A DNA stretch of 54,477 nucleotides. Source: a bacterium. GTDB taxonomy: Bacteria; Hydrothermota; UBA3073; JACQXS01. A program made the position numbers and the translations under genes. The notes under the pieces were generated by a model. It saw nothing but the letters and a program-made list of their open reading frames with translations, ran no database searches and was not told the origin of the DNA. Within the stretch, counting starts at the first letter, position 1. Every line of letters begins with the position of its first letter. Where the stretch lies: positions 1-54,477 of the forward strand of contig JAUWHX010000008.1 of the NCBI GenBank assembly GCA_030605695.1, in the 5' to 3' direction. Shown piece after piece: positions 1,192 to 53,530 of the stretch.

Positions 1192-1443
1192 CCTCTTCCC
1201 GAACTCTGTTACTCATCAACTGACATCAGGTAATCATCTACTGAAGTCAGTAACCTTTCAACTGATATCAGGTAATTATCAACTAAAGTCAGTTAATTGT
1301 CAACTGATATCAGTAGATTATCTACTGAACTCTGTAGCTTGTCAACTGAATTCTGTATCTTTTTAACTGGTGTCAGTATCTTTTCTACTGAAGTCAGTTG
1401 CTCGTCAACTGATGTCAGTAACTTTTCAACGGAAGGCAATGAG
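1192..1443. repeat. 21-bp tandem array, 11 units plus one degenerate, each with an ACTGA-NN-TCAGT palindrome
   Basis: Units begin at 1213, 1234, 1255 ... 1423 with no indels; 4 perfect 5-2-5 palindromes (ACTGAAGTCAGT, ACTGATATCAGT, ACTGAAGTCAGT, ACTGATGTCAGT) and 6 with one mismatch. Confidence 0.9.
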
Positions 1444-10839: not shown

Positions 10840-11012
10840 TTCCCGCCATAGGAATCAACAAGCGGATAGACAATTCCTCTTTTCCGCTTCAGGAGATTTA
10901 TAACCAATTGCTCATCTTGCTCCATTATCGTGGTATAATCTACAATGTTTGTAAAAACAATAGCCACTAATTGATACTTATCCCCTGACAAAGACATTTC
11001 GTTCTCATTCAT
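10840..11012 (-). pseudogene. 5' fragment of a class III adenylate/guanylate cyclase gene, truncated
   Basis: Minus-strand MNENEMSLSGDKYQLVAIVFTNIVDYTTIMEQDEQLVINLLKRKRGIVYPLVDSYGGKVL matches the cyclase domain N-terminus, then breaks off next to the stop of the 6340-10824 gene. Confidence 0.7.
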
Positions 11013-11040
11013 ACAAGCATTATTATTGAGATAAGAAATG

Positions 11041-11877
11041 TCAATAGAAATTTGGAACTAACGAAAAAACCCGCGTAGATAAACCACGAGTGAGTTTCAC
11101 AAACTCTTCGCAACTCAAGGATTCTGGTCTTCTGGATAAATCTATTCCTCCAACTGTGTCTATTTTTAACCCTAAACTATTTTTGAGTTGCTTACGACGC
11201 TCCTGAAATGAACGCTTGACAACTTTGAAAAATAATGGCTCCTGAATTTCCTTAATCCTACTTTTCGGCAAGATAGATATAACTTGAGAAACTATCGGAG
11301 TCCTTGGGAAAAATGAGTTTCCGGAGATTGAAAAGTGTTGCTCAAGCTCCATATAAAATTGATGAAAAACAGATAGGGCTCCGTAAATCTTGCTCCCGGG
11401 CTGGGCACAAAGTCTTTGAACCACCTCTTTCTGGAGAGTGAGAATACATAATTTGAAAAATGCTTTATTTGATAAAATCCAGTAAAGAAAATCATTTGTG
11501 ATGGAATATGGTAGATTGGAAACAACCTTGAGACTTGAGACTTGAGACTCGAGACTTGAGACTTTGAGGGAGAGAATGTCTTGATTTAAGAGCACCAAGT
11601 TCTTTGTCCCTTGTCCACAGGATTCTGTGAAAAATTTTTGGGTTAAGTACCTAAAAAGCAATGGGTCTTTTTCAACTGCAAAGACTTTTTTTGCATAAGC
11701 ACATAAATATTGTGTGAGAATCCCAAGCCCAGGCCCTACTTCAAGAACTACATCTTCTTGACGTATTTCACTGAGACGGATTATCCGTTCAGCTATCTTT
11801 TCATCGACAAGAAAGCTTTGACCAAATTGCTTGCTTGGTTTTATTCCTTGCTCTTTCAGTATTTCTTTGACAAACAT
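11041..11877 (-). CDS. rsmA: 16S rRNA (adenine1518-N6/adenine1519-N6)-dimethyltransferase
   Basis: KQFGQSFLVDEKIAERI, VLEVGPGLGILTQYL, VVSNLPYSIT motifs. Confidence 0.95.
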   Translation of the reverse strand: MFVKEILKEQGIKPSKQFGQSFLVDEKIAERIIRLSEIRQEDVVLEVGPGLGILTQYLCAYAKKVFAVEKDPLLFRYLTQKFFTESCGQGTKNLVLLNQDILSLKVSSLESQVSSLKVVSNLPYSITNDFLYWILSNKAFFKLCILTLQKEVVQRLCAQPGSKIYGALSVFHQFYMELEQHFSISGNSFFPRTPIVSQVISILPKSRIKEIQEPLFFKVVKRSFQERRKQLKNSLGLKIDTVGGIDLSRRPESLSCEEFVKLTRGLSTRVFSLVPNFY

Positions 11878-11902
11878 ATTCGTTAAACAAAAATCTCACG
11901 AT

Positions 11903-12481
11903 TCACGATTTCATCTTTAATTTTCTCCACACCCACAACATTCTGTAAATCCCAGTAGCATTGGTTATGATAACAAATAGCAACAAGAATCCTATGAATA
12001 TTTTGGGTCCGAAGAAACTTCCCACTACGAGCAATACAATTCTAAATGCCCGCTCTCCCAATCCAACTTTGCATTCACAGCCAAGTGATTCAGCTCTTGC
12101 TCTTGTATAGCTTATTATGTAAGAACCGAACATAGCCAACAAAACAAGGATTGTAGGAACTCGCAATGGCATATACCATAAAAATATTCCAAACAGAATA
12201 ACAAAATCTGAGTATCTGTCTATGCAAGAATCCAGAAAAGCACCGAATTTTGATTGTTTTCCAGTTAGTTTAGCAACCTCGCCATCAAGTGTATCAAATA
12301 GTCCTCCGATGAGCAATATTATGCCTCCGAGCCAGAAAATGCCTCTTGCATAAAAAAAGCTCGCTACACAAGTAATCAAAAACCCAATGAATGTCAGGAA
12401 ATTAGGATGCACTTTGCTGAAAAGCTTCGCAAGTGGCAAAAGAAACTCTCTAACTCTTGTTTTTAGCGATTCCGGTATCAT
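11903..12481 (-). CDS. CDP-alcohol phosphatidyltransferase family protein
   Basis: Motif LFDTLDGEVAKLTGKQSKFGAFLDSCIDRYSD (DGx2A...Gx3D...Dx3D). Confidence 0.9.
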   Translation of the reverse strand: MIPESLKTRVREFLLPLAKLFSKVHPNFLTFIGFLITCVASFFYARGIFWLGGIILLIGGLFDTLDGEVAKLTGKQSKFGAFLDSCIDRYSDFVILFGIFLWYMPLRVPTILVLLAMFGSYIISYTRARAESLGCECKVGLGERAFRIVLLVVGSFFGPKIFIGFLLLFVIITNATGIYRMLWVWRKLKMKS

Positions 12482-12484
12482 ACT

Positions 12485-12560
12485 GTTTAAAAACCGCAGA
12501 GACGCAAAGAGCGCAGAGAATTTTATAATGCTTTTTTTCTCTGTGCCCTCTGTGGTTTAT
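12485..12560. repeat. Inverted dispersed repeat pair in rsmI/CDP-alcohol transferase gap
   Basis: AAACCGCAGAGACGCAAAGAGCGCAGAG ... CTCTGTGCCCTCTGTGGTTT: complementary arms. Confidence 0.8.
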
Positions 12561-13318: not shown

Positions 13319-14839
13319 TTATCTCATCAAAATCAGTTTCTTTGTCTCTTTAAAATCTCCTGTCGTCAGACCCGTATGGGCTACAAGCTTCGCAAAATAT
13401 ATGCCAGCTGTCAAGTCTTTTGCATCAAAACTAACATCATAACATCCAGCTTTCCTTTCTTCATTTACTAATGTCTTAACTATCCTTCCAGTTATATCAT
13501 GAATCGTTAACCGTAAATCGTTAATCGTGTAATCGTTACGATTTCCGTTTAACGAATAACGAATAACGGTTTTCTGAGTAAATGGATTCGGAAAAACTCT
13601 AAACTCTAAACTCTTAACTTTTAACTCTTTACTCTCCTCCACACTTGTTCCTTCACATTTATGACGCTTGTAATATATCTCCGGTCTGCCAGCACGCTCA
13701 TCTGTCCAAGTTACATGAACATCATAATCATAAGAACAATCCCAACATGCTACCGAAGGATAATATGAGGAAGCAAGGGCATTAGTTAACCTCTCATCTA
13801 TTATCCCCCAAGTCTCACCATCATTAACTGACCGATTGTAATATATCTCCGTATTGCCAGCACCAGCACGCCAATCTCTCCAAACTATATGGACTATTGA
13901 ATCATGAACTGCTACTGAAGGATACTTTGAGCCATCAGGGTCAGTAGTTAACCTCTCCTCTATCCCCCAGGTCTTACCATTATCAACTGACCGCTTGTAA
14001 TATATCTCCCAGCTGCCAGCACACTCATCATGCCAAACTACATGAACTATTGAATCACGAACTGCTACCGAAGGACACTCTGAGTCAGCAGAGTTATTAG
14101 TCAGTCTCTCATTTATTATCCCCCAATTCTCACCATTATTAACTGACCGCTTGTAATATATCTCATAGTTGCCAGCAGCACACAAATTATACCAAACCAC
14201 ATGAACTATTGAACCATGGACTGCTATTGAAGGATGTCCTGAGTAGTAAAAAGAGTCATTAGTCAGTCTCTTATCTATTCCCCAAGTCTTACCATTATCA
14301 ACTGACCGCTTGTAATATATCTCCGGGTTGCTATTACGAGAATCACACCAAACTATATGGACTATTGAATCACGAACTGCTACCGAAGGATACCATGAGC
14401 CAGCAGGGTCATGAGTTAATCTCTCATCGTCTCCCCAGGTCGCACCATTATCAACTGACCGCTTGTAATATATCTTATAGTTGCCAGCACGCAAATCACA
14501 CCAAACTATATGGACTATTGAATCACAAACTGCTACCGAAGGATAATGAGAATTCCCTGTAGTTAGCCGTGTATCTGGGTCAAAGCTACTGCCAGAATTG
14601 ATAGACCTTATGTAATAAAGCTCACCGGGATTAACACCACTACTCAATCTGTGTTCCCATACAATATGCACCATAGTATCCCGCACAGCTATTGTCCAGG
14701 CATTATTGAAGCTACCATAGTCAGAATAGCTTGGATAAGCAGTTAATCTTTTTTCTGGATTCTCCCACTGTCCATACAAATCCATAGGATTCTGTGAACT
14801 GCAAGCTGCCAACACCATCAAAAATCCCCATCTCTTCAT
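13319..14839 (-). CDS. Secreted BNR/sialidase-like repeat protein with lipobox-like N-terminus and T9SS-type C-terminal sorting domain
   Basis: MKRWGFLMVLAAC; repeats SVAVRDSIVHVVWxDxRAGxxEIYYKRSVDNGxTWG; C-term VFPNPFTQKTVIRYSL...YDVSFDAKDLTAGIYFAKLV...KKLILMR. Confidence 0.85.
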   Translation of the reverse strand: MKRWGFLMVLAACSSQNPMDLYGQWENPEKRLTAYPSYSDYGSFNNAWTIAVRDTMVHIVWEHRLSSGVNPGELYYIRSINSGSSFDPDTRLTTGNSHYPSVAVCDSIVHIVWCDLRAGNYKIYYKRSVDNGATWGDDERLTHDPAGSWYPSVAVRDSIVHIVWCDSRNSNPEIYYKRSVDNGKTWGIDKRLTNDSFYYSGHPSIAVHGSIVHVVWYNLCAAGNYEIYYKRSVNNGENWGIINERLTNNSADSECPSVAVRDSIVHVVWHDECAGSWEIYYKRSVDNGKTWGIEERLTTDPDGSKYPSVAVHDSIVHIVWRDWRAGAGNTEIYYNRSVNDGETWGIIDERLTNALASSYYPSVACWDCSYDYDVHVTWTDERAGRPEIYYKRHKCEGTSVEESKELKVKSLEFRVFPNPFTQKTVIRYSLNGNRNDYTINDLRLTIHDITGRIVKTLVNEERKAGCYDVSFDAKDLTAGIYFAKLVAHTGLTTGDFKETKKLILMR

Positions 14840-25778: not shown

Positions 25779-27299
25779 ATGGATAAGAAAGTATCTCTTG
25801 GAAGACTAACCTTAATTATAGGACTTGCCATTGTATTCGAGCTTTCTATTATTGCGAGACTCATTAATCTCCAGTTTTTCCGTCGCAGTGGGTTCCAGAT
25901 TCGTGTCAAGGAACAATCGGAAACAAAAGTTAAAGTAACGGCTAAGAGGGGTAGAATTTATGATAGATACCGTAGAATCCTTGCTACCTCTATCAGCAAG
26001 CAGTCCACAGGATTCTGCGAAAGGGTATATCCACTCGAAGAGGTTGCAGGAAATTTGCTTGGGTTCGTAGGAAAAGATAATATAGGATTAGAAGGAGTAG
26101 AGTATGAATTTGACCCTCTCCTTTCTGGAAAACCGGGATGGATGACTCTGGGCAAGACCCCACGAGGGCATCTTTACCCTTACCCGGGTTATCCTCGCAC
26201 CCGCGTGAAACCCGCAAAAGACATTGTTTTAACAATAGATGCTGACATTCAAGCTATTATTGAGGCAGCTTTAATGAAAAGAATTAATGAGGTGCAAGCA
26301 AAAAAGGGAAGCGCTGTAGTTATTGACCCAAGAACTGGTGAGATATTAGCTATGGCAACAGTCCCTTCTTATAATCCTAATCACTGGAAAAGAGAAGCTT
26401 GCCGAAGAAATGTTCCTCTCCAGGACCAATTTGAACCAGGCAGTACTTTTAAAATTGTACCCTTATCTATTATTGTAGAGGAAAGTCTTGTAGGTCTTGA
26501 GGACACAGTTGAAGATGGGACTGCAAAAATAACAATAAGTGGCAAGACAATCAGAGATGTTAAGCCACATGGTCCATTCACATTTGCTCAAGCTGTTTGG
26601 AAGTCAAGCAATGTAGCGTTTGTTAAACTCACAAACTTAATTGGCAAACACAGATTTTATTCTGCTGCAAGAGCTTTTGGCTTTGGAATTCCAACCGGAG
26701 TATCTCTTCCAGGAGAAGCGAGCGGAAGTTTATCTCTTCCATCAGGCTGGAGTAATCTGAGATTTGCAAACCTTGCTTTTGGTCAGGGAGTGAGTTGTAG
26801 TTTGCTTCAGCTCGCCTTTGCATATCAGGCAATTGCAAATGATGGAGTGCTCTTAAAACCAATAATAATTAAAGAGGTCATTTCAGAAAAAGGAAAAGTG
26901 CTTTATGAAGAGAAACCTATGAAAGTTCGAGAAGTTTTACCTCCGGAAAAAGCAAAAGAGGTTACAGAACTTTTATGTGGAGTAGTAGAAAATGGAAGTG
27001 GAATGCTTGCGCGGATTAAAGGGCTGAAGATGGCAGGAAAAACTGGAACTGCAAATAAGTGTGTTAGTGGAAGGTATGTTTCATCTTATATGTCAAGTTT
27101 TGTATGTTTTTTCCCAGCAGATAACCCCATATTTCTTGTTGCTACTGTAATTGATGAGCCAAAATATGTATATCTTGGTGGTGAGGTTGGCGGTCCTCTA
27201 ATGCACGAGATAGCAAGAAAAATCACTCGGATAAGGGAATATAGAGTTATTGACTGCCAACCACCGACCGTGGATAGTGGAGTTGAAGATGAAGCTTAA
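25779..27299 (+). CDS. ftsI: Class B penicillin-binding protein (FtsI/SpoVD family)
   Basis: RGRIYDRYRRILATS, FEPGSTFKIVPL, SSN (KSSNVAFVKL), KTGTAN. Confidence 0.95.
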   Translation: MDKKVSLGRLTLIIGLAIVFELSIIARLINLQFFRRSGFQIRVKEQSETKVKVTAKRGRIYDRYRRILATSISKQSTGFCERVYPLEEVAGNLLGFVGKDNIGLEGVEYEFDPLLSGKPGWMTLGKTPRGHLYPYPGYPRTRVKPAKDIVLTIDADIQAIIEAALMKRINEVQAKKGSAVVIDPRTGEILAMATVPSYNPNHWKREACRRNVPLQDQFEPGSTFKIVPLSIIVEESLVGLEDTVEDGTAKITISGKTIRDVKPHGPFTFAQAVWKSSNVAFVKLTNLIGKHRFYSAARAFGFGIPTGVSLPGEASGSLSLPSGWSNLRFANLAFGQGVSCSLLQLAFAYQAIANDGVLLKPIIIKEVISEKGKVLYEEKPMKVREVLPPEKAKEVTELLCGVVENGSGMLARIKGLKMAGKTGTANKCVSGRYVSSYMSSFVCFFPADNPIFLVATVIDEPKYVYLGGEVGGPLMHEIARKITRIREYRVIDCQPPTVDSGVEDEA

Positions 27300-36342: not shown

Positions 36343-37638
36343 ATGAAAAACCAAATTATTGCTGGCATTGATTTAGGAAGCTCTAAAATCGCTTGTATGA
36401 TTGCTAAAACAAGTGCCCCTCCACAGGATTCTGCGAATAATCCAGCCCCAGAAATCATTGGTGCAGGGATTTCAGAGCCTAAGGGTTTCTCCAATGGTTT
36501 GGTGGTCAATCTCGAACTTGCTGCTCAATCTATTAAAAATGCTACTTCTCTTGCTGAGACGCAAGCTGGTGTTAAACTATCAGAGTTATATATTGCTATT
36601 ACAGGTGCACACATTAAAGGTGAATCCTCAAAAGTTTCTCTCTCCATTTCACCTGACAAAGAGATTACGCCTGCTGATGTTTCTCAACTCGTTCAACAAG
36701 CTTCCACTGTTGACCTCCCATCTCACCGTACTATCATTCACTCGTTCCCCCAAGAATTTATTCTTGATGACCTCCACGGCATCCGCGACCCCATTGGTAT
36801 GAACGCTAACCGCCTACAGGCCTCTATTTACATTGTTACTGCTACTTCTACCGCCATACAAAATATCCAGAAAGCCATTAATAGAGCAGGATTTAAAGCA
36901 AGAGAGTTCCTCCCTCAGCCCATCGCCGCTTCTTACTCTGTCCTTGATTCCAATGACCAAGAACTCGGTTGCATGCTTATTGATATTGGCGGTGAAACTA
37001 CTGATGTTGCTGCCTTCTATAACGGTGGTATTTATGATACTCTTTCACTCGGTCTCGGCGGAGCTGATATTACTAATGATATTTCTATCGGACTTTCTAT
37101 ATCAAGATATCATGCCGAACAACTAAAAATCAAACACGGTGCTGCTCGCTCTGACCTTGCTTTCTCACTCTCATCTCCACAGGATTCTGCGAATAAACAC
37201 TCCTCTCCAATTAAGATTCAATCTCTCGGCAAAGACATTGAACAAACCATTGATAAAAAATCTCTCATTTCCATCATTGCTCCTCGCGTTGAGGAAATCT
37301 TTGGATTGCTTCACAGAAAACTGAAATATCCGACTGACTTAGAGCTCCTTCCTGCTGGTATCGTTCTTACCGGAGGTGCTGCTAAAATGCCTGGCATTTC
37401 AGGACTTGCCGAACGCATCTTTGGTATCCCTGCTAAAATTGGTATCCCTAATACTGTTCAATCGCTTAATCAATATAAAGACCCTTCTTTTGCCACACCT
37501 ATCGGCCTTATTATTTATGGCTCTATAGATAAATCCGCCTCAAACGGAAATAAAAGAAACGGAAGGATGGGAAAATCTTCAAAAGCACCTTTGCTCTCAT
37601 CTTTCTCTAATCGTGTGAAAAGCTGGCTATTAGAATAA
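36343..37638 (+). CDS. ftsA: Cell division protein FtsA
   Basis: IIAGIDLGSSKIACMI, LIDIGGETTDVAAF, GGADITNDISIGL, GIVLTGGAAKMPGI. Confidence 0.96.
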   Translation: MKNQIIAGIDLGSSKIACMIAKTSAPPQDSANNPAPEIIGAGISEPKGFSNGLVVNLELAAQSIKNATSLAETQAGVKLSELYIAITGAHIKGESSKVSLSISPDKEITPADVSQLVQQASTVDLPSHRTIIHSFPQEFILDDLHGIRDPIGMNANRLQASIYIVTATSTAIQNIQKAINRAGFKAREFLPQPIAASYSVLDSNDQELGCMLIDIGGETTDVAAFYNGGIYDTLSLGLGGADITNDISIGLSISRYHAEQLKIKHGAARSDLAFSLSSPQDSANKHSSPIKIQSLGKDIEQTIDKKSLISIIAPRVEEIFGLLHRKLKYPTDLELLPAGIVLTGGAAKMPGISGLAERIFGIPAKIGIPNTVQSLNQYKDPSFATPIGLIIYGSIDKSASNGNKRNGRMGKSSKAPLLSSFSNRVKSWLLE

Positions 37639-53275: not shown

Positions 53276-53530
53276 ATGAATGAGTTAGAGAGTTCTATGA
53301 GTGACTCGGTAACATTACCGAATGACTTGGTAGCATTACCGAACCGATGGGGAACACTGCCGAACGACTCGGTAGCATTGCCGAATGAATGGGTAAGATT
53401 ACCGAACGGATGGGGAACATTCCCGAACGAGTGGGGAACATTACCGAATGGATGGGGAAGAGTACCGAATGACTTGGGAACCTTCCCGAACGAATTGGGA
53501 ATATATGGAGTGCAACAAGTAAAAGACTGA
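53276..53530 (+). CDS. 84-aa heptad-repeat mini-ORF made of a 21-bp palindromic array
   Basis: MNELESSMSDSVTLPNDLVALPNRWGTLPNDSVALPNEWVRLPNGWGTFPNEWG...; no disruption by stops. Confidence 0.5.
   Translation: MNELESSMSDSVTLPNDLVALPNRWGTLPNDSVALPNEWVRLPNGWGTFPNEWGTLPNGWGRVPNDLGTFPNELGIYGVQQVKD
53307..53509. repeat. 21-bp tandem array, 9 units plus one degenerate, with GGTAA-NN-TTACC / GGGAA-NN-TTCCC palindromes
   Basis: Units start at 53307, 53328, 53349 ... 53475 with no indels; perfect cores GGTAACATTACC, GGTAAGATTACC, GGGAACATTCCC, GGGAACCTTCCC. Confidence 0.92.

Follow-up and report, generated by a model that had tools for sequence, protein, structure and literature searches.

An 18-bp sequence, probably a very small mobile unit, in rsmA and other genes of WOR-3 bacteria

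Results

The rsmA locus and the element copies of the window

The window, i.e. the whole stretch of 54,477 nucleotides analysed here, belongs to genome G000 (1.98 Mb in 93 contigs). An intact minus-strand ORF encodes RsmA, in agreement with its best relatives of solved structure (RsmA/KsgA), and contains an exact match to the 18-mer TCCACAGGATTCTGTGAA. The element has the type sequence TCCACAGGATTCTGCGAA, with the ends TCC and GAA, and five copies at 3 mismatches or fewer are present in the window, vs 0.08 expected from dinucleotide shuffles. The relevant features are as follows.

11041..11877, minus strand: host gene rsmA, 278 aa, intact (PF00398, E 6e-49)
11610..11613, plus strand: target tetranucleotide CTTG, directly 5' of the rsmA element copy; fits the C-T-T-N consensus and is also present in the empty G002 allele
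11614..11631, plus strand: 18-bp element copy in rsmA, exact match; the minus-strand gene reads FTESCG
14781..14798, plus strand: element copy TCCATAGGATTCTGTGAA in a minus-strand BNR-repeat / Por_Secre_tail protein gene; reads SQNPMD
26004..26021, plus strand: element copy in the ftsI/PBP gene; reads STGFCE
36420..36437, plus strand: element copy in ftsA, first site; reads PQDSAN
37176..37193, plus strand: element copy in ftsA, second site; reads PQDSAN, within a lineage-specific expansion with no clean empty site

A reading of the letters alone (the sequence-only reading) had placed this 18-mer in minus-strand rsmA, with 17 of 18 positions identical to the ftsA copies and in a different strand and frame. 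All of this holds: the rsmA copy differs from the ftsA copies (36420 and 37176) and the ftsI copy (26004) by a single base, T/C at position 15, and the ftsA copies read PQDSA(N) from the other strand and in a different frame. The eight residues FTESCGQG ascribed to the element are to be shortened, as the copy encodes FTESCG and the final Q and G stem from host sequence.

The genome contains 97 copies at 3 mismatches or fewer (60 on one strand, 37 on the other), and a reversed control gave 0. Copy lists were compiled from pattern searches and fetched stretches of genomes, all of them fragmented metagenome assemblies; the copies were picked by similarity to the consensus, a choice that partly sets the spread of substitutions along the element. 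No Rfam match was found in window 11000-12500.

Occupied and empty alleles

RsmA of G000 and G001 carries FTESCG, and an exact six-residue gap occupies this site in RsmA of G002, G003, G004, G006, G007 and other relatives. G002 is of the same genus as G000, with RsmA 76% identical, and at the DNA level its ATCTTG^AAACT corresponds to CCCTTG(18 bp)AAATT in the window, an 18-bp gap at 78% identity. Judged from these alignments, the rsmA copy is a true insertion. Similarly, STGFCE of FtsI (copy 26004) is an exact six-residue insert relative to G002 and G006, and PQDSAN of FtsA (copy 36420) relative to G002, being missing also from FtsA of other relatives.

Joined flanks of the G001 copies were sought in G000, and the reverse search was done in G001 and G002. 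Besides rsmA, empty alleles, each without the 18 bp, were recovered at 8 sites in G000, 6 in G001 and 6 in G002 (leaving out L082 in G002, which is messy). The paralogous secreted-protein genes L001 and L003 represent a mutual empty-site pair, copy 14781 being common to the paralogue L001 and L003 being empty there. Every gap at an empty site measures 18 bp, with ends that can slide by 1-2 bases at L085, L086, L073 and L020. L054 and L085 are empty both in the sister G001 and in the outgroup G002, and hence were gained in the G000 lineage; the majority of empty sites lack such polarisation, and for some of these precise loss is possible. Insertion adds a unit of 18 bp and leaves the target unduplicated, and the element has reached new sites after the divergence of two closely related species.

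The structure model of RsmA has a mean pLDDT of 88 and places the insert in the loop that connects helix 72-83 with strand 94-97, within the least-confident block of the folded core; this loop hexapeptide is probably neutral.

In the FtsI/PBP encoded at window 25779-27299, PF03717 matches 24 residues, and the greater part of the usual dimerisation domain is missing. As the N-terminal part is equally short in G002 and G006, which have no element there, this is a lineage trait, and we discarded the possibility of a large deletion at the ftsI copy.

Target preference

With the element oriented TCC...GAA, we compared the flanks of 113 independent sites from four lineages, after a de-duplication that is approximate. 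A cytosine is found at -4 in 56 of 67 sites in G000, 28/33 in G001, 31/33 in G006 and 9/13 in G009 and G015 combined (P from 2e-4 to 1e-29). Across the 113 sites the flanks read C (88%), T (56%), T (73%), N, insertion point, not-G (94%), A (58%), A/G; beyond approximately 5 bp the sequence is flat, and no covariation links the two target halves. Since most empty alleles also have C at -4, the signal is that of the target and not of the element. The element inserts directly 3' of C-T-T-N, usually before a non-G base followed by A.

Stem structure

As RNA, TTCGCAGAATCCTGTGGA can form a stem of 7 bp, two of them G-U (-6.3 kcal/mol), and the opposite strand folds only weakly. A TTCGAA subfamily breaks this stem yet is multi-copy, and the pairs 4-15 and 5-14 vary without compensation, with C-T at 5-14 in 17 of the 113 sites, so that the hairpin may be of no importance. 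The term palindromic, taken over from the sequence-only reading, is apt as a description of an imperfect palindrome whose pairing is not kept by compensatory changes; it may not name an essential property.

Coding context and reading frames

By ORF calls that use length only, 54 of 68 G000 copies at 2 mismatches or fewer (79%) lie in ORFs, compared to 85% of random positions, and coding DNA is thus neither avoided nor preferred. All six frames are used by the 54 in-ORF copies: FAESCG 15, PQDSA 13, SQNPVD 12, STGFCE 8, RRILW 4 and HRILR 2. The basic/hydrophobic frames RRILW and HRILR are depleted (6/54 vs an expectation of one third, P 2e-4), which is what translation of the inserted codons would produce if certain hexapeptides are harder to tolerate. 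In G006, which is of another family, all six frames are likewise used. Orientation relative to host genes shows no bias (23 vs 31, P 0.34). The genome-wide tabulation of frames and host genes that had been suggested as a check therefore finds copies in all six frames, on both strands and in unrelated genes, rather than in one frame or in homologous domains. The consensus is free of stop codons in all six frames, a property shared by approximately 10% of random 18-mers of the same base composition; this, together with a length of exactly six codons, would account for tolerance in coding DNA.

Distribution among genomes

A degenerate pattern detects 64 copies in G000, 49 in G001, 30 in G006, 15 in G009 and 2 in G002, and none in G003, G004, G005, G007, G010 and G012; outside the class, the relatives searched gave stray single matches only. 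The spread is patchy, i.e. the element is abundant in some WOR-3 genomes and missing from close relatives. A search of 84,980 species genomes located the exact 18-mer mainly in the WOR-3 records RS_17_16 and UBA3073, and outside WOR-3 in 9 scattered stretches in 257 Gb vs approximately 7.5 expected by chance. A few of the latter, in a Hydromicrobium ORF and in Ignavibacteriales, have C at -4 and may be real copies. In a Flammeovirgaceae MAG, also outside WOR-3, related short words are densely arrayed around the 18-mer (L150) and may represent a family of related elements.

Discussion

Based on the empty alleles, the target preference and the copy numbers, we propose that the 18-mer is probably a mobile 18-bp unit, very small and non-autonomous, whose precise insertion has built up many copies in some WOR-3 (Caldifarciminota) genomes. 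It is apparently among the smallest mobile DNA elements known. The copies would be moved by an activity encoded elsewhere, i.e. a trans-acting enzyme, the likeliest being a single-strand transposase of the HUH/Y1 type (IS200/IS605-like). We make this class assignment by analogy and hold it to be rather doubtful; it is favoured by insertion 3' of a retained tetranucleotide, by the missing duplication and by the pyrimidine preference at +1, which are features of that reaction. IS200/IS605 insertion produces no target duplication. IS608 inserts 3' of TTAC, retains TTAC in its left flank and prefers C at +1 (PMC5934647). The 18-bp element resembles IS608 and ISDra2 in all three respects, but its C-T-T-N (88% C at -4) is looser than the strict TTAC of IS608, and those two are full insertion sequences with tnpA, subterminal paired hairpins and guide sequences, unlike the single gene-less 18-nt unit with one imperfect palindrome described here.

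Y1_Tnp genes are present in G000, G006 and G009. Their numbers do not track copy numbers, as G002 and G003 have 6 and 4, respectively, with almost no elements, and G001, which is 61% complete, has none. No copy lies within approximately 1.5 kb of the inspected Y1_Tnp loci (L040 and L209-L223), the nearest in G000 being approximately 1.7 kb away. Neighbouring copies share orientation in 28 of 43 pairs (18 against 10 in G000, 10 against 5 in G006), which is not significant, and a lagging-strand bias is at most suggestive.

Among related systems, REP sequences moved by a RAYT (TnpA-REP) provide a comparison: both are short, probably non-autonomous palindromes that have a preferred tetranucleotide at one end, and Y1_Tnp genes exist in the same genomes. 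However, GTAG is part of the REP itself, whereas the tetranucleotide found here belongs to the target and is present in empty alleles; the element ends in TCC and GAA without a GTAG or CGTC tag. REPs are moreover mainly extragenic and often flank RAYT genes, while the copies analysed here are mostly intragenic and none flanks an inspected Y1_Tnp gene. We consider this origin unlikely, and membership among REPs was rejected on tag and RAYT linkage (compared with PMC3733652 and PMC8266576). Spread through an RNA intermediate, by reverse splicing or reverse transcription, is equally improbable. Such a route has reportedly been suggested for some cyanobacterial small dispersed repeats (SDRs), and it is compatible with the nested and composite copies and with the full stem, including G-U pairs, that one strand (TTCGCAGAATCCTGTGGA) and not the other forms as RNA. 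On the other hand, no RVT_1 reverse transcriptase was found in the 16 genomes of the class, which together with the even orientation relative to host genes speaks against it, and the stem-breaking TTCGAA subfamily is still multi-copy.

The sequence-only reading had likened the 18-mer to the Rickettsia palindromic elements (RPEs), i.e. peptide-coding selfish palindromic repeats. The likeness holds as far as both are discrete units inserted in frame within conserved bacterial protein genes (here rsmA, ftsI and ftsA) and tolerated there, in our case with imperfect palindromy, exact empty sites and use of all frames and both orientations. Kinship is a different matter, and we regard it as highly improbable that the element is an RPE or a direct relative. 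We know of no C-T-T-N target rule for RPEs, and the phylum is unrelated. RPEs measure 105-146 bp with long stem-loops (PMC2229807), in contrast to 18 bp of different sequence here, and RPE-4 and RPE-6 carry a CGTC tag (PMC3733652) that is present at neither end of the element. Many near-identical copies in one genome could also point to selection, either on a sequence signal (regulatory, Chi-like or for DNA uptake) or on a peptide motif, of words that arose by point mutation. We judge this very unlikely, given that the copies are precise 18-bp indels between orthologues, that six different peptides are encoded and that orthologues without copies show no obvious gene loss. Every genome is a metagenome assembly, which speaks for an assembly or library artefact, but the same rsmA copy occurs in two separate MAGs (G000 and G001), the independent MAGs G006 and G009 obey the same target rule and the copies carry ordinary divergence, which leaves an artefact barely conceivable.

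The closest known kind appears to be the cyanobacterial SDRs. According to Elhai et al. in 2008, SDR1-SDR8 of Nostoc and relatives are reportedly approximately 21-27 nt long and in many cases surrounded by tandem heptamers, and the secondary structure of SDR4-SDR6 is said to be conserved with compensatory changes. Precise insertion within HIP1 has been described for SDR5. Like these, the WOR-3 element is a tiny dispersed repeat with clean insertions, nested copies, a preferred target and evidence for mobility. It differs in length (18 bp, slightly below that range), in phylum, in its C-T-T-N rather than HIP1 target, in being common in conserved coding genes and in stem pairing that is not maintained. 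The SDR study is cited in PMC3116915 and PMC4390886. Among the papers searched, none contains the core words of the element.

How very short dispersed repeats move has been a long-standing question since RPEs and cyanobacterial SDRs. Many empty/occupied pairs, fixed 18-bp boundaries and a sharp target rule in independent genomes allow candidate enzymes to be tested against explicit predictions, and the insertions represent a simple route for conserved bacterial proteins to gain six residues. A more far-reaching reading, which we advance tentatively and with slightly less than even confidence, is that a site-selective single-strand integrase obeying the C-T-T-N rule acts in trans to move this 18-bp mobile element, possibly the smallest described. 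By placing six translatable codons in conserved genes, whatever the frame, the element would serve as a recurrent source of hexapeptide insertions in WOR-3 proteins.

Other short repeats

Several other repeats were observed alongside the element. The related short families TCCAAAGGAGTCTGCGAC and CGAGTCTGTGACCTGTGGAC are nested or clustered with the 18-mer (L080, i.e. G000:C65 1-620, L088, L292 and L293), and one 337-aa ORF among these loci holds approximately six copies. In G006, the 18-mer lies within a larger inverted repeat, GCAAAAACTATGTTTTTGCATG^element^CAACAACATAGTTGTTGCACTC, and this composite has itself multiplied, with at least 5 copies (L257, L270, L271, L272 and L280).

Arrays of 7-bp repeats of the AACTCCC/AACTCTC type (window 13595, 28943, 34515 and 37967) are dispersed in the genome and its sisters and sometimes host the 18-mer. 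The link appears to be weak: 4 of 100 copies lie in strong heptamer arrays vs 54 of 3000 background positions. Two further repeat arrays with a 21-bp period are located at window 1201-1431 and 53282-53519. The rsmA gene itself contains, at window positions of approximately 11528-11570, a run of GAGACTT-like 7-bp repeats (LKVSSLESQVSSLKVV) that is shorter in G002, and heptamer arrays hence also vary in length inside genes.
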